From Rubrivivax sp. (GTDB lineage: Bacteria; Pseudomonadota; Gammaproteobacteria; Burkholderiales; Burkholderiaceae_C): a DNA stretch of 64,000 nt. Of this stretch, positions 1,822 to 40,397 are shown piece by piece. How positions within the stretch are numbered: the stretch's first letter is position 1; the number at the start of each line of letters is the position of its first letter. A program made the position numbers and the translations under genes. The notes below the pieces were generated by a model, which did not search any database, was not told where the DNA came from, and worked only from the letters and a program-made list of their open reading frames with translations. The DNA is taken from contig JAHBZS010000003.1 in assembly GCA_019635285.1 (NCBI GenBank), forward strand, positions 145,096-209,095, in the 5' to 3' direction.

Positions 1822-3201
1822 ATGCCGAAGCCGTTTGATTCTCTGACCCCCCATCTGGCGCGCATCCGTACCTGGGCGACGCGCCATTCGCGCGCCCTCA
1901 GCGCGAGTTTCATCGCCGTTCTCGGGGGCTTTGCGGCCGCGGCCTTCGGCGTGGCCCCGTTGCTGCCCGATCCGGCCGACCAGCCGCAACGCCTCGTCAC
2001 CGACACGATCGCCCCGGTGGGCCTGCGCGACCAGCTGAACGCGCTGGCCGACCACGACCTGGAACTGTGGCGCACCGACCTGACGCGCGCCAACGACAAC
2101 GTCGACAGCCTGCTGCGCCGGCTGGGCGTCATCGACGCCGAAGCGGCCGGCTTCCTGCGCACCGACCCGCAGGCGAAGCGCCTGATCGACGGGCGCGCCG
2201 GCAAGATGGTGCAGGCGCGCGCCACCACGGGCGGCAAGCTGATCGAACTGGTGGCTCGCTATGGCGCCCCGGACGGCGCGCAGAACGAAGCCCGCTTCAC
2301 GCGCCTGAGCGTGGCGCGCCAGGACGGGCGCTGGAGCAGCCGCACCGAGGTGGCGCCGCTGGTCGGCCAGGTGCGGCTGGCCAGCGGCACCATCCGCACA
2401 TCGCTGTTCGCGGCCACCGACGAAGCCCGCATTCCGGACGCCGTGGCCTCGCAGATGGCCGAGGTCTTTGCCGCCGACATCGACTTCCACCGCGAGCTGT
2501 ACAAGGGCGACACCTTCAGCGTGGTCTACGAAGCGCTCACCGCGGACGGCGAGCCGGTGACCTGGGCGCCGACGACCGGGCGGGTGCTGTCGGCCGAGTT
2601 CGTCAACGGCGGCAAGGCCTATCAAGCCCTGTGGTACACCGACGCCTCCGGCCGCGGGGCGTACTTCGGTTTCGACGGCCGCAGCAAGCGCCGCGTCTTC
2701 CTGGCCAGCCCGATGGAGTTCTCGCGCGTCACCTCGGGCTTCGCGATGCGCTTCCACCCGATCCTGCAGACGCTGCGCGCGCATCGGGGCGTGGACTACG
2801 GGGCGCCCACCGGCACGCCGGTGCGCTCCGTGGCGGATGGCGTGGTCGAGTTCGCCGGCTGGCAGAACGGCTACGGCAACGTCATCAAGGTGCAGCACGG
2901 CAACTCGCGCGAGACGCTGTACGCCCACCTGAGCCGCATCGACGTGCGCAAGGGCCAGGCCGTCGAGCAGGGGCAGAACCTGGGGGCGGTCGGCGCCACG
3001 GGCTGGGCGACCGGGCCGCACCTGCACTTCGAGCTGCTGATCAACGGCCAGTACGTCGATCCGCTGAGCATCGCCAAGGCCGCCGACACCGTGACCATCG
3101 ACGCGTCCTCGCGCTCGAAGTTCGCCGCGCTGTCGAACAGCGCCCGCCTGCAGCTCGAACTGGCCGAGACGCTGGCCGGCAACCGCCCCCAGTCGGAGTA
3201 G
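1822..3201 (+). CDS. M23 family murein endopeptidase, membrane-anchored
   Basis: The product is 459 residues. A single hydrophobic segment at about residues 28-46 follows a basic N-terminus and acts as signal anchor, so the enzyme faces the periplasm. A long middle region resembles the OapA/YebA-type N-domain of septal and lateral-wall hydrolases. The C-terminal LytM domain carries the zinc motifs HRGVDYG (His at about 321, Asp at about 325) and HLHFEL (about 400-405). Such enzymes cleave peptide cross-links in peptidoglycan. The gene lies next to anmK, which recycles cell-wall sugar. The gap to anmK is only 26 bp, so co-transcription is likely. Whether it is a MepM-like endopeptidase or an EnvC-like activator is not settled, but the intact metal ligands favour an active enzyme. 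Confidence 0.9.
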   Translation: MPKPFDSLTPHLARIRTWATRHSRALSASFIAVLGGFAAAAFGVAPLLPDPADQPQRLVTDTIAPVGLRDQLNALADHDLELWRTDLTRANDNVDSLLRRLGVIDAEAAGFLRTDPQAKRLIDGRAGKMVQARATTGGKLIELVARYGAPDGAQNEARFTRLSVARQDGRWSSRTEVAPLVGQVRLASGTIRTSLFAATDEARIPDAVASQMAEVFAADIDFHRELYKGDTFSVVYEALTADGEPVTWAPTTGRVLSAEFVNGGKAYQALWYTDASGRGAYFGFDGRSKRRVFLASPMEFSRVTSGFAMRFHPILQTLRAHRGVDYGAPTGTPVRSVADGVVEFAGWQNGYGNVIKVQHGNSRETLYAHLSRIDVRKGQAVEQGQNLGAVGATGWATGPHLHFELLINGQYVDPLSIAKAADTVTIDASSRSKFAALSNSARLQLELAETLAGNRPQSE

Positions 3202-3227
3202 CTTCTCCGCCGCCTGGCACGGTCCGG

Positions 3228-4355
3228 ATGTCGCTGTTCATCGGGCTGATGTCCGGCACATCGCTGGACGGCGTCGACGGCGTGCTGGCTGACCTGGGCC
3301 CGGAGCCCGCGCAGCGCGGCACGATCCGCGTGCGGGCACATCGGCACCGCGCCTTCGACGACGACCTGCGCAACCGCCTGCTGCGCTTGAACAGCGTGGG
3401 CGACGACGAATTGCACCAGGCCGCGTTGGCCGCCAATGCGCTGATGCGCCACTACGCGGCGGTGGTGGACCAGTTGCTGCGCGACAGCGGCCTGGCGGCG
3501 GCGCAGGTCCGCGCGATCGGTGCCCACGGGCAGACGGTGCGCCACCGGCCGCTGGAGTTCGACGGCACCGGCTACACGCTGCAGTTGATGAATGGTGCAC
3601 TGCTCGCTGAAGCGTGCGGCATCGACGTCGTCTGCGACCTGCGCAGCCGCGACGTGGCGGCAGGCGGCCAGGGCGCCCCGCTGGTGCCCGCCTTGCACGC
3701 AGCATTGTTTGCGTCGCCGGACGAAGACACGGCCGTGCTCAACCTGGGCGGCATCGGCAACCTGACCCTGCTGCCGGCGCAGGGGCCGGTGCGCGGCTTC
3801 GACTGCGGCCCGGGCAACGCGCTGATGGACCTCTGGTGCCGTCGCCACCTGGGCACCGACTACGACGAGGGCGGCCGGTGGGCGGCCTCCGGGCACGTGG
3901 ATCCGTTGCTGCTGCAACGCCTGCTGGACGAGCCGTTCCTGCGACGCTCGCCGCCCAAGAGCACGGGGCGCGATCTGTTCAACGCGGCCTGGTTGGAGCG
4001 GGCGCTGCAGGGCCTGCCGCAGGCCACGGCCCCGTCCGATGTGCAGGCCACCCTTGCCGAGTTCAGCGCCCGCGCCGCGGCCGACGCCTTGCAGGCCCAT
4101 GCGCCCGGCACACGCCGGCTGCTGGTCTGCGGCGGCGGCGCCTTCAATGCGCATCTGATGCAGCGCCTGACGGCGCTGTTGCCGGCGACGAAGGTGCAAA
4201 GCACCTCCGAAGGCGGCGTCCCGCCGGAGCAGGTCGAGGCACTGGCATTCGCCTGGCTGGCTTGGGCCTTCGTCCATCGGCAACCGGGCAATCTGGCCAC
4301 GGTGACCGGCGCCCGCGGGCCGCGGGTCCTGGGCGCGCTGTATCCCGCCGCCTGA
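3228..4355 (+). CDS. anmK: Anhydro-N-acetylmuramic acid kinase
   Basis: The product is 375 residues and phosphorylates and opens 1,6-anhydro-MurNAc to MurNAc-6-phosphate in cell-wall recycling. The N-terminal ATP-binding signature GLMSGTSLDGVD is complete. The sugar/phosphate motifs GQTVRH, NLGGIGNLT, GFDCGPGNALMD and the late VCGGGAFN segment are all present. ATG 3228 was chosen because the family begins with the glycine-rich motif within the first ten residues. The gene follows the M23 peptidase on the same strand, which makes a sensible recycling pair. Confidence 0.95.
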   Translation: MSLFIGLMSGTSLDGVDGVLADLGPEPAQRGTIRVRAHRHRAFDDDLRNRLLRLNSVGDDELHQAALAANALMRHYAAVVDQLLRDSGLAAAQVRAIGAHGQTVRHRPLEFDGTGYTLQLMNGALLAEACGIDVVCDLRSRDVAAGGQGAPLVPALHAALFASPDEDTAVLNLGGIGNLTLLPAQGPVRGFDCGPGNALMDLWCRRHLGTDYDEGGRWAASGHVDPLLLQRLLDEPFLRRSPPKSTGRDLFNAAWLERALQGLPQATAPSDVQATLAEFSARAAADALQAHAPGTRRLLVCGGGAFNAHLMQRLTALLPATKVQSTSEGGVPPEQVEALAFAWLAWAFVHRQPGNLATVTGARGPRVLGALYPAA

Positions 4356-29194: not shown

Positions 29195-30334
29195 ATGCCC
29201 CTGATCACCTACCTCACGCAGATCCAGATCGAAGCCGGCGCCCGCAAGCTGCTGGCCGGCGAATGCGAACGCACGGGCATGCGCAAGCCGCTCATCGTCA
29301 CCGACGCCGGCGTGCGCACGGCCGGCGTGCTGCAGCAGGTGCTGGATGCGCTGCCCGCCGGTCTGCGCGGCGCGGTCTACGACGGCACGCCGCCCAACCC
29401 GAACGAGCGCGCGGTGCGCGAGGCCGTAGCCATGTTCCAGCAACACGGGTGCGACGGGCTCATCGCCGTGGGCGGCGGCTCGTCGATCGACTGCGCCAAG
29501 GGCGCGGCCATTGCCGCACGCCACCCCGGCCCGCTGAAGACCTACGCCACCATCGAAGGCGGCGCGGCACTGATCACCGACGCCTGCGTGCCGCTGATCG
29601 CCGTGCCCACCACGGCCGGCACCGGCAGCGAGGTGGCGCGAGGCGCCATCGTCATCCTGGACGACGGGCGCAAGGTGGGCTTCCATTCCTGGCACCTGCT
29701 TCCCAAGGCGGCCATCTGCGACCCCGAGCTGACGCTGGGCCTGCCACCGCTTCTGACCGCGGCCACCGGCATGGACGCCATCGCGCACTGCATGGAAACC
29801 TTCATGGCGCCGCCCTTCAATCCGCCGGCCGACGGCATCGCGCTCGACGGGCTGGCGCGCGGCTGGGCGCACATCGAGCGCGCCACGCGCGACGGCGCCG
29901 ACCTGGATGCACGCCTGCAGATGATGAGCACGTCGGCACAGGGCGCGCTGGCCTTCCAGAAGGGCCTGGGCTGTGTGCATTCGCTGAGCCATTCGCTGGG
30001 CGGCGTCAACCCGAAGCTGCACCACGGCACCTTGAACGCGATGTTCCTGCCGGCGGTGATCCGCTTCAATGCCGAGGCGGAGTCGATGCGCAAGGAACGG
30101 CGCCTGGAACGCATGGCCCAGGCCATCGGCGCGAACGGCGGCGACGCCGTGCCCGACGCCATCCGCGCCCTCAACCAGCGCCTGGGCCTGCCCACCGGCC
30201 TGGCGGCGATGGGCGTGCAGCGCGATGAGTTCGACCGCATCATCGCCGGCGCGCTGGCCGACCATTGCCACAAGACCAACCCGCGCATCGCGACGGCGGA
30301 CGACTACCGCGCGATGCTGGAAGCGTCGATGTAG
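29195..30334 (+). CDS. Iron-containing (group III) alcohol dehydrogenase
   Basis: The product is 379 residues. The nucleotide-binding [17 protein letters not shown] is at about 88-104, and [16 protein letters not shown] follows. The metal-ligand region includes [11 protein letters not shown] and [11 protein letters not shown]. The substrate cannot be read. Relatives reduce aldehydes, maleylacetate or lactaldehyde. It is tightly coupled to fumC (four-base gap), which is unusual and may only reflect shared transcription. Confidence 0.87.
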
Positions 30335-35154: not shown

Positions 35155-36552
35155 TCAGGCCAGCGCCTCCTGCAGGCTGGGCTCGTCCTGGCCCAGTGCC
35201 TGGCGGATGTGCGCGATCAGCTGGTCCTCGGGATAGGGCTTGCCCAGCAGCACGCTCACGCCGCAGGCGTCGGCCTGCTCGCGGTGGCGGTCGTCGGCGG
35301 CGGTGATCATGATCACCGGCAGCTGCGCGGTGCGCGGGTCGGCGCGGATGTGCCGCGTCAGCTCGAAGCCGTCCATGCCCGGCATCTCCACGTCGGTGAT
35401 GACCAGGTCCGGCAGGCCGTCCTGCAGCTGCTGCGCGGCGTCCAGGCCGTCGCCGGCGTAGCTGACCTGGTACTGGTGCTGCGCCAGTAGCCGGCCGGTC
35501 TTGATGCGCACCACCTTGGAGTCGTCGACCACCAGCACGCGCGTCTGCGCCGGGCTCTTGGCCGCGAGCTGACGCTCCAGCACCAGGCGCGCGGCCTCTT
35601 CCTCCTCGAGGCGTTGCGCTTCGGCACGCTGCGCAGCATCGCGCTCGGCCTGCAGGCGCCGGCGTTCGGCTTCGGCCTGGGCCGCGGCAAGGCGCTGCGC
35701 TTCCTGGCGCGCGGCTTCGGCACGTGCGGCGGCTTCTACGCGTTCGGCCTCTGCTCGTTCGGCCTCGGCGCGCTCCGCTTCTGCCCGTTCGGCAGCTTCC
35801 ACCCGCTCGGCCTCGGCACGTTCTTCTTCCAGGCGTGCGGCTTCGATGCGTGCGGCCTCCGCGCGTTCGGCTTCCACCCGTGCCGCCGCTTCGCGCTCGG
35901 CTTGGGCGCGGGCCGCGGCAGCCTGTGCCTCTTCGTGGCGCGCGGCTGCGGCGCGTTCAGCCTCGGCACGCTCAGCTTCGGCACGTTCAGCCTCCGCCCG
36001 CGCCGCGGCTTCGCGCTCGGCTTGCAGGCGCTGCTGTTCCGCTTGGGCGTGTGCCGCCGCGGCGCGTTCTTCTTCGAGACGCGCGGCTGCGGCGCGCTCG
36101 GCTTCGGCCCGCTCGGCTTCGGCGCGCTCCGCGCTCTCGCGCTCTGCCTCGGCCTCGGCCTCCGCCTGGGCCGCGTCGGCACGCTCTGCCTCCAGGCGCG
36201 CGGCGTCGGCGCCTTCGGCTTCAGCCTGTTGCGCCGCCTCGAACTCGGCCAGCAGGCGTTGCTGCTCGGCTTGCCACGCCGCCTCGCGCTCGGCCTCGGC
36301 ACGCGCCGCCTCGGCGCGCTGCGCTTCCAGGCGCTCGGCCTGCGCGCGCTCGGCGGCGGCGGCGTGTTCGGCCGCCACGCGGGCTTCGTCGACCTGCAGG
36401 TCCGGCCCCCGGGACACCGGGGCGGCCGTGGCCGGCCCGGTCGGCATGGCCTCCTGTTCTTCGCGCCGGCGGGCGCGGCGCCGCCGCAGCGCCTGCCAAC
36501 CGGACGCGCCTATGGCCGTGAGGGCCAGCAACCAAGGTAACAGATCACCCAT
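35155..36552 (-). CDS. Membrane-anchored coiled-coil response regulator
   Basis: The product is 465 residues. Residues about 4-20 are one transmembrane helix (LLPWLLALTAIGASGW), then a basic RRRRARRREE stop-transfer. Residues about 60-335 are an almost pure Ala/Glu/Arg heptad-like coiled coil built from repeats such as AEAERAEAERAA. Residues about 340-460 are a complete receiver domain with VLVVDDSK, phospho-acceptor Asp near 387 in ITDVEMPGMDGFEL, and the conserved Lys in GKPYPEDQ. There is no output domain. ATG 36552 is preferred to an upstream start because it directly precedes the helix. No partner kinase is encoded nearby. The opposite-strand Gly/Phe/Leu ORFs are shadows of the repeat. 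Confidence 0.85.
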   Translation of the reverse strand: MGDLLPWLLALTAIGASGWQALRRRRARRREEQEAMPTGPATAAPVSRGPDLQVDEARVAAEHAAAAERAQAERLEAQRAEAARAEAEREAAWQAEQQRLLAEFEAAQQAEAEGADAARLEAERADAAQAEAEAEAERESAERAEAERAEAERAAAARLEEERAAAAHAQAEQQRLQAEREAAARAEAERAEAERAEAERAAAARHEEAQAAAARAQAEREAAARVEAERAEAARIEAARLEEERAEAERVEAAERAEAERAEAERAEAERVEAAARAEAARQEAQRLAAAQAEAERRRLQAERDAAQRAEAQRLEEEEAARLVLERQLAAKSPAQTRVLVVDDSKVVRIKTGRLLAQHQYQVSYAGDGLDAAQQLQDGLPDLVITDVEMPGMDGFELTRHIRADPRTAQLPVIMITAADDRHREQADACGVSVLLGKPYPEDQLIAHIRQALGQDEPSLQEALA

Positions 36553-36768
36553 GAGCGGAATTCCGGCGCCAAACCAAGGGCCAGCATAGGCGCGAAGCCG
36601 CCTGGGCGGCCGCACGGCGGCGGCGCCAAGCGCTCAAATTCCTCGAAGTCGGCGACTGCGTGGCGGCTCGGACGCCCCCCAAGGTGCCACCGCGACGTGA
36701 CGCGCCGTTCATGCAGAATGCGCACGCACCGCGGCCCCGCGCCCCGAAAACACCGACGGAGACATCGC

Positions 36769-38073
36769 GTGATCCTGGATCTCATCCCCGAATCGACCCG
36801 GGCCGCCGGCCTGGAAGTGCTGATGAAGGGCGCCGGCAAGCTGACGCGCTTCATTCCCATTCCACAGCCCACGCTGCTCGTCGGCCCCGGCGCCAGCGCC
36901 CGGCTGGGGCAGGCGATCGCCGGCTTCGGCCACGCCAGGATCCTCATCGTCACCGACGCGGTGATCGCCAAGCTCGGCCTGCTCAAGCCGCTGACCGACG
37001 CGCTGACGGCCGGCGGCGCACAGCACGTGGTGTTCGACGAGATCACGCCGGATGCGCCGATCCCGCTGGTCGAGCGCGGCGTGGACTTCTACCGCCAGCA
37101 CGACTGCGACGCCATCGTCGCCTTCGGCGGCGGCTCGTCGATGGATGCGTCCAAGGCCATCGCCGCGGCCATCGCCAACCCGAACAAGACCTTGCGCGAA
37201 CTGGCCGGCTACCTGAAGTCGCGGCTCAACAACCCGGTGCGCATCTATGCGGTGCCCACCACCGCCGGCACCGGCTCCGAGGTGACGGTGGCAGCGGTCA
37301 TCGCCGATCCCGAGCAGCAGGCCAAGCTGGTGATCATCGACCCGCGCCTGGTGCCGAAGATGGCGGCGCTGGACCCGTCGCTGATGACCGGGCTGCCGCC
37401 GCACATCACCGCGGCCACCGGCATCGACGCGCTGACGCATGCCATCGAATCCTTCGTCGGCCGCTGGACCACGCCCTATTCCGACGGCATGGCGCTGTCG
37501 GCGGTGGGCCTGATCTTCGAGAACCTGCCCATCGCCTACCGCGACGGCAAGAACCTGGCGGCGCGCGAGAAGATGTCGCTGGCCTCCACCTACGCGGGCT
37601 TCGCCTTCACGCGCGCCAACGTCGGCTACGTGCATGCCATCGCCCACCAGTTCGGCGGCCGCTACCACACGCCGCACGGCCTGGCCAACGCCATCCTGCT
37701 GCCGCACGTGCTGCGCTATTCGCTGTCGGCCATCACCGACCGGCTGGCGCTGCTGGCGGTGCGTGCGCGCGTCGGCCACGAAGGCGAAAGCGAGGACGTG
37801 CTGGCGCAGAAGTTCGTCGATGCGGTGCAGCAGCTGAACGACGACCTGGGCATCCCGCGCTACCTGGACGCGCTGCGCGAGCAGGACATTCCCGCGCTGG
37901 CCAAGGCCGCCTGCGCCGAAGGCAACACCTATCCGGTGCCACGCTACATGACGCAGAGCGCCTGCGAGGAGCTGATCCGCCAGGTGCTTGCGCCCACTCA
38001 GCCCGCCAAGTCCGCCCGCCCCGCCCGGCCCGCCGCGCGCAAGCCGCGCGCCGCCCGCAAGTCCAAGGCATGA
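36769..38073 (+). CDS. Iron-containing alcohol dehydrogenase with basic C-terminal tail
   Basis: The product is 434 residues. Classic Fe-ADH features are present: [34 protein letters not shown], and metal ligands in IDALTHAIESF and HAIAHQFGGRYHTPHG. The last 25 or so residues (from AKSARPAR to ARKSKA) are Lys/Arg/Ala/Pro-rich, unlike usual family members, and resemble the tail of the next protein. The start is GTG 36769 after a CGGAGA site. The upstream ORF extension is Arg-rich and probably untranslated. It is followed 23 bases later by the acyl-ACP-reductase-like gene, so the pair may make and reduce an aldehyde. Confidence 0.87.
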   Translation: MILDLIPESTRAAGLEVLMKGAGKLTRFIPIPQPTLLVGPGASARLGQAIAGFGHARILIVTDAVIAKLGLLKPLTDALTAGGAQHVVFDEITPDAPIPLVERGVDFYRQHDCDAIVAFGGGSSMDASKAIAAAIANPNKTLRELAGYLKSRLNNPVRIYAVPTTAGTGSEVTVAAVIADPEQQAKLVIIDPRLVPKMAALDPSLMTGLPPHITAATGIDALTHAIESFVGRWTTPYSDGMALSAVGLIFENLPIAYRDGKNLAAREKMSLASTYAGFAFTRANVGYVHAIAHQFGGRYHTPHGLANAILLPHVLRYSLSAITDRLALLAVRARVGHEGESEDVLAQKFVDAVQQLNDDLGIPRYLDALREQDIPALAKAACAEGNTYPVPRYMTQSACEELIRQVLAPTQPAKSARPARPAARKPRAARKSKA

Positions 38074-38096
38074 CGCCACACCAGGGAGACAAGTCG

Positions 38097-40397
38097 ATGA
38101 AGAAGGTCGTGACGGTGACGCTGGGTGCGTCGAAACAGGATTTCGAGTTCCAGACCGACTTCCTCGGGGAGCGCTTTTCGGTCAAGCGCCTCGGCGCCGA
38201 CGGCGACCACCGCAGGGCCTGGGAGATGCTGCGCCGCCAGCAGGCCCATGCCGACGCCATCGGCCTGGGCGAGACCTCCGACCACTACCAGGTGGGCCTG
38301 CGCACCATCGTCAACCGCGAGACCGAGAAGCTCACCAAGGTGGTGACGCGCGTGCCGGTGACCACCGGCGCCACCTTGCGCCGGCTGCTGCAGGTGCGCG
38401 CGGTGCGCCATGTGCAGAAGGAGCTGGGCAGCTACTTCAACAACAACCGCGTGCTGTTCCTGTCGGGCATGCGCAACTACGACATCGCGGTGGCGCTGTC
38501 GGACTACACCAAGAACCTGAGCTTCGCCGACCCGGTGTTCCAGGCCGGCTCGCCGGTGCTGCTGACCTCGCTGGCGCAGCTGGAGATGTATGCGCGCGGC
38601 AACGAGCTGGTGGCCGGGCAGAAACCGTTCCGGCTGCTGGAGAAGTCGCTGGCCGGGCTGAAGAACATGCGCGTGGCCAACGCCATGACCAAGGCGCACC
38701 TGATCGTCGGCACCTTCAACGAGATCAAGGCCGTCGGCACGGTGGCCAACCTGGAGGGCAAGACGGTCATCACCTCGGCGGTGCACGACGACCAGCTGGC
38801 CTTCTACAAGCAGTGCAAGGTCAACCTGGTGATCGACGTGTCGCCCAACCTGTTCGGCCGCGTGGTCGGCGTGGCCACGCTGGAGGCGATGATCCTGGCC
38901 CACCTGGGGCGCAACGCCAACGAGCTGGCCGACGACGAGTTCGAGGAGATCATCACCGAACTCGACATCACACCCAGGCTTCTGCACCCGACCGGCCAGT
39001 TCCGCAACATCCGGCGCTTTGCCTTCGTGGTGCACCCCTTGAGCCAGGAGTTCATCAAGAAGGGCTTCCCCATCCCCAAGGCCACGCCCAAGCTGGTGAT
39101 GGACAAGGTGGAGCAGCTGGCGGCGTACATCCCGCCGCAGGTGTACTGCAAGATGGAGAACATCGTCTCGCCCACCGGCGCCGAGGCCGAGGGCTGGCTG
39201 ATCTTCGTCGGCGGCACGCCCAAGGAGATGCTGTCGCACAGCCCCGAGTTCACCTACCGCCGGCTGCTCGCCGCGGCGGCGATGGCCGAGAAGATGGGCG
39301 CGCAGCTGATGGGGCTGGGCGCCTTCACCAAGGTGGTCGGCGATGCCGGCGTCACCGTGGCGCGGCGCGCCACGTTGCCCATCACCACCGGCAACAGCTA
39401 TTCGGCGTCGGGCGCGCTGTGGGCCGCCGCCGACGCGATGAAGCGCATGGGCCTGGTGCCGGTGCCGCCCAAGGGCCAGCGCATCGCCGCCAAGACCATG
39501 GTCATCGGCGCGTCGGGCTCGATCGGCTCGGTGAGCGCGCGGCTGCTGGCGATGGCCTTCGACGAGGTGGTCATCGCCGGGCGCGACATGAAGAAGCTCG
39601 ACGAGCTGAAGAAGTCGATCCTGCAGGACACGCCCGACGCCAACGTGGTGTGCTCCACCGACTACGACAGCCTGCTCGGCGACATGGACATGATCGTCAC
39701 CAGCACCTCGGGCGCGGGCAAGAAGATCCTGGACATCACCAAGGTCAAGCCCGGCTGCGTCATCACCGACGTGGCGCGCCCGCTGGACCTGCCGCCCGAA
39801 GAGGTGGCCAAGCGGCCGGACGTGCTGGTCATCGAATCGGGCGAGATCGAGTTGCCGACGCCCGTCAAGGGCATGAAGAGCATCGGCCTGCCGAAGAATG
39901 TGATCTACGCCTGCCTGGCCGAGACCATCGTGCTGGCGCTGGAAGGCCGCTTCGAGGTCTTCACCATCGGTCGCGACACCGAATGGGAGAAGGTCAAGGA
40001 GATCTACAAGCTGGGCCTGAAACACGGCATGAAGCTGTCGGCCATCTCCGGCGTCAAGGGCGTCTACAGCGACGAGGACATCGCCAAGGTGGTGGCGCTG
40101 GCGAAGAAGGCGCGGCTCACCTGGAAGGGCGGCACGGCCGCCGCCAAGCCGGCCCGCGCGCCGGCCCGCAAGCGCGCCGCGGCGCCGACCACGAAGCCCA
40201 CCGCGGCGAAACCCACGGCCACGAAGGCCGCCCCGAAGGCCGCCACGAAGAAGGCCGCGGTGAAGAAGACGCCGGCCAAGACGCCGGCCAAAGCACCGGC
40301 CAAAGCACCGGCCAAAGCGCCCGCCAAGACGCCCGCCCGAAAGGTCGCACCGAGCAAGGCCGCACCTCGCAAGGCCGCGGCGCGCGCGGCGGCCTGA
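38097..40397 (+). CDS. Acyl-ACP-reductase-like dehydrogenase with extra N-domain and H1-like tail
   Basis: The product is 766 residues. Residues about 305-675 resemble cyanobacterial acyl-ACP reductase: a PPQVYCKMENIVSPTG strand region, MGAQLMGLGAFTKVVG, the dinucleotide site MVIGASGSIGSVSARLL (about 466-482), and VIYACLAETIVLALEG. In the last, Cys at about 606 lines up with the acyl-accepting cysteine of those enzymes. Residues 1-300 are an additional domain I do not recognise. From about 680 the protein is a Lys/Ala/Pro tail with PAKAPAK repeats, as in bacterial histone-H1-like proteins and some phasins. It probably reduces an acyl thioester to an aldehyde with the adjacent Fe-ADH taking it further. 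This is inferred from sequence memory, not a search. Confidence 0.75.
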   Translation: MKKVVTVTLGASKQDFEFQTDFLGERFSVKRLGADGDHRRAWEMLRRQQAHADAIGLGETSDHYQVGLRTIVNRETEKLTKVVTRVPVTTGATLRRLLQVRAVRHVQKELGSYFNNNRVLFLSGMRNYDIAVALSDYTKNLSFADPVFQAGSPVLLTSLAQLEMYARGNELVAGQKPFRLLEKSLAGLKNMRVANAMTKAHLIVGTFNEIKAVGTVANLEGKTVITSAVHDDQLAFYKQCKVNLVIDVSPNLFGRVVGVATLEAMILAHLGRNANELADDEFEEIITELDITPRLLHPTGQFRNIRRFAFVVHPLSQEFIKKGFPIPKATPKLVMDKVEQLAAYIPPQVYCKMENIVSPTGAEAEGWLIFVGGTPKEMLSHSPEFTYRRLLAAAAMAEKMGAQLMGLGAFTKVVGDAGVTVARRATLPITTGNSYSASGALWAAADAMKRMGLVPVPPKGQRIAAKTMVIGASGSIGSVSARLLAMAFDEVVIAGRDMKKLDELKKSILQDTPDANVVCSTDYDSLLGDMDMIVTSTSGAGKKILDITKVKPGCVITDVARPLDLPPEEVAKRPDVLVIESGEIELPTPVKGMKSIGLPKNVIYACLAETIVLALEGRFEVFTIGRDTEWEKVKEIYKLGLKHGMKLSAISGVKGVYSDEDIAKVVALAKKARLTWKGGTAAAKPARAPARKRAAAPTTKPTAAKPTATKAAPKAATKKAAVKKTPAKTPAKAPAKAPAKAPAKTPARKVAPSKAAPRKAAARAAA

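Follow-up and report, generated by a model that had tools for sequence, protein, structure and literature searches.

We examined a 64,000-nucleotide stretch of a Rubrivivax sp. genome (GenBank assembly GCA_019635285.1, contig JAHBZS010000003.1, positions 145,096 to 209,095; hereafter the window), in which genes for an iron-containing alcohol dehydrogenase (Fe-ADH, below ADH) and a two-part reductase lie on the same strand, 23 nt separating the ADH stop codon (38071-38073) from the reductase ATG (Table 1). Both proteins end in basic tails. A preliminary description of this DNA had reported the two reading frames, the 766-residue length of the reductase and the ADH adjoining it, all of which our gene models reproduce. 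A GGAGA motif stands 8 nt ahead of the GTG start of the ADH, and N-termini are homologous in two related loci (L019 and L095). The ADH matches PF00465 (165.6 bits against a gathering cut-off of 31.3) and PF25137 (181.9 bits, above its cut-off) and reaches no NCBIfam equivalog cut-off; the PDB chains closest to it are NAD-dependent methanol dehydrogenases, 1,3-propanediol oxidoreductase, ADH2 and lactaldehyde reductase. A second Fe-ADH in the window, at 29195-30331 (+), has no basic tail and shares 38% identity with the tailed one.

Table 1. Coordinates of the ADH-reductase locus in the window, and of two genes flanking a related Comamonas locus
Feature	Position	Strand	Details
Fe-containing alcohol dehydrogenase	36769..38073	+	434 aa from GTG 36769; ATG 36823 is an alternative start
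Basic C-terminal tail of ADH	37993..38070	+	About 26 residues, Lys/Arg/Pro/Ala; passes the 25-residue tail test
Tandem reductase	38097..40397	+	766 aa, begins MKKVV; ATG 38097, stop 40395-40397
Residues 1-306, probable degenerate (non-catalytic) AAR-fold half	38097..39014	+	
Residues 307-666, predicted catalytic thioester-reductase half	39015..40094	+	
Dinucleotide loop GASGSIG, residues 471-477	39507..39527	+	G471, G474 and G477 in 95/95 distinct rows
Cys606 codon, predicted acyl-accepting cysteine	39912..39914	+	Aligns with AAR Cys294; Cys in 91/95 distinct rows
Histone-like Lys/Ala/Pro/Thr/Arg tail of reductase	40134..40394	+	About 87 residues (about 680-766)
Flanking genes of locus L019 (own coordinates)	150-845 and 2867-3604	- and +	One of the two genes is phasin-like, with a match of 76 bits, under its cut-off

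The best-scoring named family for residues 307-666 is the PigE thioester-reductase domain (NF053554, 186.2 bits, E = 1e-54), in a match confined to the reductase half and below the equivalog cut-off of 850 bits. The acyl-acyl carrier protein (ACP) reductase family (AAR, TIGR04058) also matches (67.2 bits, E = 1.6e-18, equivalog cut-off of 449.7 missed), and the AAR structure 6jzq aligns to residues ~344-650 (E = 1.3e-13), with Cys606 falling on AAR Cys294; PDB entry 6jzz bears the title AAR-C294S. In a structure search with the model of the whole reductase, the C-terminal half was AAR-like and accounted for the matches listed. The preliminary description had likened this half to AAR and equated a cysteine near residue 606 with the acyl-accepting one. 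The likeness and the cysteine equivalence stand, and profile searches place residues 305-675 with AAR and PigE, not with an unrelated dehydrogenase family; what has to be amended is the closest named family, which by E-value is the PigE domain. No aminotransferase family is among the Pfam matches of the reductase, and a PigE-type secondary-metabolite enzyme was rejected or ranked low on that ground.

Cys606 is invariant in all 38 rows of a first alignment that included the window. In a larger alignment, reduced from 99 to 95 rows by removing identical ones and holding the window twice (with and without its tail), the four departures are all to glycine, and all are second gene copies in tandem Desulfobacterota loci. 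In five such loci (L074, L075, L076, L078 and L080) a WS/DGAT (wax ester synthase) gene is followed by two tandem reductases; the shorter second copy of L078 is a fifth with the glycine. Because the first copies read YACLAET and the second copies YAGLAET, the sequences indicate that the family has at least once set an active reductase beside a copy without the catalytic cysteine.

Profile searches of residues 1-340 against Pfam and the PDB returned nothing meaningful. Since structure searches with the whole model were filled by the C-terminal half, the N-terminal half was modelled on its own. Foldseek placed sugar-binding proteins on top for this model, with the carmabin TAD at rank 17 and AAR at rank 29; re-examination with VIA-align put AAR and TAD at the top, the AAR match spanning the whole half, and only VIA-align gave this ranking. 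An hhalign comparison of the two halves yielded a probability of 3.6%, and one of 59 column-shuffled controls scored equally high; we therefore do not claim a duplication from sequence. Judged from the model, residues 1-306 are probably a degenerate, non-catalytic copy of the reductase fold.

Relatives were collected by scanning contigs for residues 1-666, which gave 175 encoding stretches; locus counts use the best 80, in most of which these residues match over their full length. The 80 come mostly from betaproteobacterial metagenome-assembled genomes (MAGs) and a few isolates, then from Gammaproteobacteria, SAR324 and Desulfobacterota, and include two MAGs labelled Acidobacteria and Thermoanaerobaculia. 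Within the host genus the reductase is patchy, occurring in 15 of 60 genomes at E < 1e-100 (G046 has a partial match only), a count that excludes G056 with its PigE-like pieces only. Of 40 order-level genomes, none goes beyond a single weak match of Rossmann type, and the N-terminal half is present in 3 of 398 genomes of a phylum-wide draw, host included. The genus holds two reductase subfamilies, scoring ~1170-1270 and 930-1020 bits. Beside the weaker one (nine loci), an ADH of 60-67% identity is divergent in L099, L101, L102, L105 and L106; no ADH was called in L100, L103, L104 and L112. An 861-aa frame in G056 (C183:4304-5527) matches the reductase half only and is possibly a PigE-type fusion enzyme.

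Gene neighbourhoods were drawn from the 80 loci and a stretch of the window (81 sources), using codon-composition gene calls by a purpose-written script, followed by clustering. The reductase cluster occurs in 81/81 sources and the ADH cluster in 62/81; in the window, and in 53 more loci whose reductase end is complete, the ADH sits immediately upstream in the same orientation. The commonest neighbour after the ADH is a WS/DGAT, found in 27/80 loci: 11 downstream on the same strand, 11 downstream on the opposite strand (10 in Rhodocyclales-type loci, some 5-6 kb away, and one in Variovorax at 2.3 kb), and five directly upstream, in Desulfobacterota. Pfam confirmed PF03007 and PF06974 on both WS/DGAT representatives tested. 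A PhaF/PhaI-type phasin cluster, with PF05597 on the representative tested, occurs in 14/80 loci, 13 times downstream of the reductase. Within the host genus, G002, G006 and G039 have a WS/DGAT immediately after the reductase (the latter two are the contigs also counted as L025 and L040), and G022 has a divergent one, missed by the codon-composition caller, which overlooks genes. The Comamonas locus L019, an ADH-reductase-WS/DGAT run, is flanked by genes for a phasin-like protein whose ends are basic and for a helix-turn-helix protein with a basic tail.

Tails were scored by two tests: test A takes the last 50 residues (K/R at least 11, K/R/A/P/T/V/S/G at least 38, D/E at most 4) and test B the last 25. 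Test A is passed by 59/84 reductases, 19/62 ADHs, 14/14 phasins and 12/27 WS/DGATs, set against 1/12 in the patatin cluster, 0/55 in five other clusters and 5/241 among unclustered remaining genes, one of these five being the phasin-like gene of L019. Test B passes number 45/84, 36/62, 11/14 and 6/27 for the same four families and 4/241 for the others. A net-basic extension past the conserved core was counted in 77/81 sources, with L004, L061 and L065 (3' end cut) and L072 (start misplaced) left out. Where the ADH is upstream on the same strand, both proteins carry tails in 53/54 loci, the window included, and L039 has, by this criterion, the reductase tail only. The reductase is tailed in three of four divergent gammaproteobacterial loci, and in the five Desulfobacterota tandem loci its ends are acidic or short. 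Among the 64 gene calls of the window, test A is passed by the reductase only and test B by the reductase and ADH only. In host stretches outside the window (59 calls), picked for WS/DGAT and phasin and so serving as local controls, not as a proteome count, tails occur on 5/5 WS/DGATs and the phasin and on 0/53 other calls. The tails that the preliminary description had noted on both enzymes are thus real and recur across orthologues.

A general tendency of these genomes to put such tails on their proteins was rejected or ranked low, given the 5/241 count for other genes and the 0/53 count in the host stretches. They could still be neutral, low-complexity extensions produced by repeat expansion in GC-rich betaproteobacteria and sharing no function. 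The tail DNA is indeed a short tandem repeat (a 12-bp repeat at 40269-40337 in the window), tail length and sequence vary widely, and tailless relatives exist. We nevertheless consider this account unlikely: tails are concentrated in the linked reductase, phasin and WS/DGAT families, controls are low throughout (1/67 across the six other neighbour clusters), and net positive charge is retained while the sequence drifts.

The wider genome provides a possible setting for wax-ester synthesis, a context that, like the phasin association and the resemblance of residues 1-300 to a degenerate copy of the modelled reductase fold, was absent from the preliminary description. The host has five WS/DGAT genes; 14 control genomes have none. 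The gene on contig C32 shares 77% identity with the reductase-linked type, the one on C50 sits behind an AMP-binding, acyl-CoA-synthetase-like gene, and the C14 gene is assigned to WS/DGAT by Pfam but has no match to the HHxxxDG pattern, which the other four match. A PF05597 phasin gene directly precedes a patatin-like gene, the same pair as in Rhodocyclales-type reductase loci. Two further Fe-ADHs (35-38% identity) are present, one with an inner stop. Across the genus, all 15 reductase carriers among the 60 genomes encode WS/DGATs, with 2-8 genes each; carriers average 3.9 genes and non-carriers 2.2 (one-sided Mann-Whitney p = 6e-4, uncorrected for relatedness or completeness).

We think it fairly probable that the pair serves as the alcohol-forming branch of a wax-ester storage pathway, held at granules or the nucleoid by PhaF-like tails. 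The activity, substrate and direction of each step are inferred from the reductase, ADH and WS/DGAT families. Cys606 of the reductase would accept a long-chain acyl group, delivered by acyl-ACP or acyl-CoA, and NAD(P)H would serve to reduce it to the aldehyde; the N-terminal half would perform no catalysis, and its probable role is to support its catalytic partner within the same chain. The aldehyde would pass to the Fe-ADH, and the resulting fatty alcohol would be esterified by a WS/DGAT, encoded adjacently in some relatives and elsewhere in the host genome. The presumably disordered Lys/Ala/Pro tails of the reductase, ADH and WS/DGATs, of the PhaF-type phasin kind, would bind a polyanion or the granule coat. 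The polyanion would be nucleoid DNA, or perhaps polyphosphate, and the pathway would thereby be gathered at the forming granule. By Pfam, neither the reductase nor the ADH has a PF05597 phasin domain; they resemble PhaF-type phasins in tail type only.

A route from acyl thioester through aldehyde to alcohol, with a shared anchor, had been proposed in the preliminary description. Homology and the repeated WS/DGAT linkage support the predicted route, and the anchor idea is strengthened because WS/DGATs and the phasin carry like tails. The observation of that description is confirmed and its interpretation overall partly supported; none of the three findings that it named as refuting was made. 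Like tails on the catalysts of one pathway and on a phasin suggest that these proteins come together at a granule close to the nucleoid, with oil synthesis tethered either to storage granules or to DNA. The granules may be of wax, triacylglycerol or polyhydroxybutyrate (PHB), and the tail ligand may be DNA. More tentatively, and as a possibility we would not yet bet on, Betaproteobacteria may run a wax-ester assembly line whose reductase, ADH, WS/DGAT and phasin all bear tails of the histone-H1 type; lipid synthesis would then be organised by its own catalysts on the surface of the nucleoid or granule. The reductase family itself would be built on active/inactive partnerships (the in-chain pseudo-half, and the Desulfobacterota tandem gene with Cys replaced by Gly) and would supply fatty alcohol in a way additional to the Acr1 and FAR enzymes.

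Several observations weigh against assigning the pair to wax-ester storage. In the host's 64-kb window no WS/DGAT or phasin gene lies beside it, and 53/80 loci have no WS/DGAT in the examined flanks, some of which are short contigs. WS/DGATs do not depend on the reductase, occurring also in 41/45 genus genomes without it. The host has three matches over the whole polyhydroxyalkanoate (PHA)-synthase N-domain, so its phasin may serve PHB, and it encodes one separate NAD_binding_4 reductase candidate. Tail conservation also has gaps: none of the ADHs in the four divergent gammaproteobacterial loci is tailed, and the 19 reductases with no ADH inside 2 kb, some of them at contig ends, divide into 9 tailless and 10 tailed.

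The direction of the chemistry could also be the reverse. Patatin, TetR, TPR, GMC oxidoreductase, aldehyde dehydrogenase and lipase-like genes are recurrent neighbours, for the most part in Rhodocyclales-type loci, and the GMC oxidoreductase and aldehyde dehydrogenase genes there could mean oxidation. The Fe-ADH would then oxidise fatty alcohols from waxes or alkanes to aldehydes, to be taken on by the reductase and neighbouring dehydrogenases in an oxidative or salvage role, to which the lipase-like and patatin genes would also be suited. The nearest solved ADH relatives, which include methanol dehydrogenases and lactaldehyde reductase, settle no direction. We regard this role as quite unlikely, given that WS/DGATs are linked in three separate arrangements, that the closest reductase relatives, PigE and AAR, work reductively (PMC8341465), and that most loci outside the Rhodocyclales type have no such oxidation genes in the examined flanks. 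Slightly less likely is that the aldehyde is destined for another product (ether or aldehyde lipids, or a secondary metabolite) and the wax link incidental: the top named family, PigE, does belong to a secondary-metabolite pathway and the host window offers no adjacent WS/DGAT, but the Pfam search found no aminotransferase domain in the reductase, and only the ADH is a commoner neighbour than WS/DGAT and phasin.

Beyond the pair, the window continues with genes for a MOSC protein and a cyclic-nucleotide (cNMP)-binding protein. On the strand opposite the pair, at 35155-36615 (-), a gene encodes a PF00072 receiver domain after a hydrophobic start and a long Ala/Glu/Arg-rich repeat region; its DNA has repeats of 15- to 63-bp period.

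If the wax-ester assignment is right, the pair would be an additional way for bacteria to obtain fatty alcohol for wax esters and a candidate enzyme pair for fatty-alcohol production. It would also extend histone-like tails to metabolic enzymes, beyond the granule scaffold, and make the siting of storage granules and their partition to daughter cells testable through tail deletions. Pairings of an active with an inactive reductase, whether within a single chain or as tandem genes, would give a clean test of the role of a pseudoenzyme half. By title or start of abstract, the open-access literature yielded no account of the reductase-ADH pair or of WS/DGAT tails, which is no proof of absence. 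What is new is the unreported combination of known catalytic folds with a known tail type, plus a probable active/inactive reductase pairing.

Each element has a counterpart in a known system. The catalytic half scores best with the N-terminal domain of PigE of the prodigiosin pathway (NF053554; 4ppm), with which it shares an active-site cysteine; PigE uses that cysteine to turn a thioester into an aldehyde, which a partner uses (PMC8341465). PigE, however, is fused to an aminotransferase, whereas here an N-terminal pseudo-half and a basic tail are added and a separate Fe-ADH is the presumed partner. Cyanobacterial AAR (TIGR04058; 6jzq, 6jzz) shares the fold, the dinucleotide loop and the Cys294/Cys606 position, but is ~340 aa long and has neither second half nor tail. 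The metagenome study of WS/DGAT contexts, in the text available to us, describes reductases like MAQU_2507 and a single phasin in the vicinity of WS/DGATs from Burkholderiales and makes no mention there of the reductase-ADH pair (PMC10351704). MAQU_2507-type enzymes likewise provide fatty alcohol for wax esters, as single alcohol-forming enzymes of the SDR type, in contrast to the AAR/PigE-type reductase plus Fe-ADH described here. The tails are most like the Lys/Ala/Pro C-termini of storage-granule and lipid-droplet proteins, KPAA in PhaF and AlgP and PAKKA in MLDS, which bind DNA and have been demonstrated or proposed to anchor granules or droplets on it (PMC3574117, PMC9239181, PMC5504291). 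In those systems the tails sit on scaffold or coat proteins, whereas here they are found, besides the phasin, on the enzymes of what may be a single pathway.

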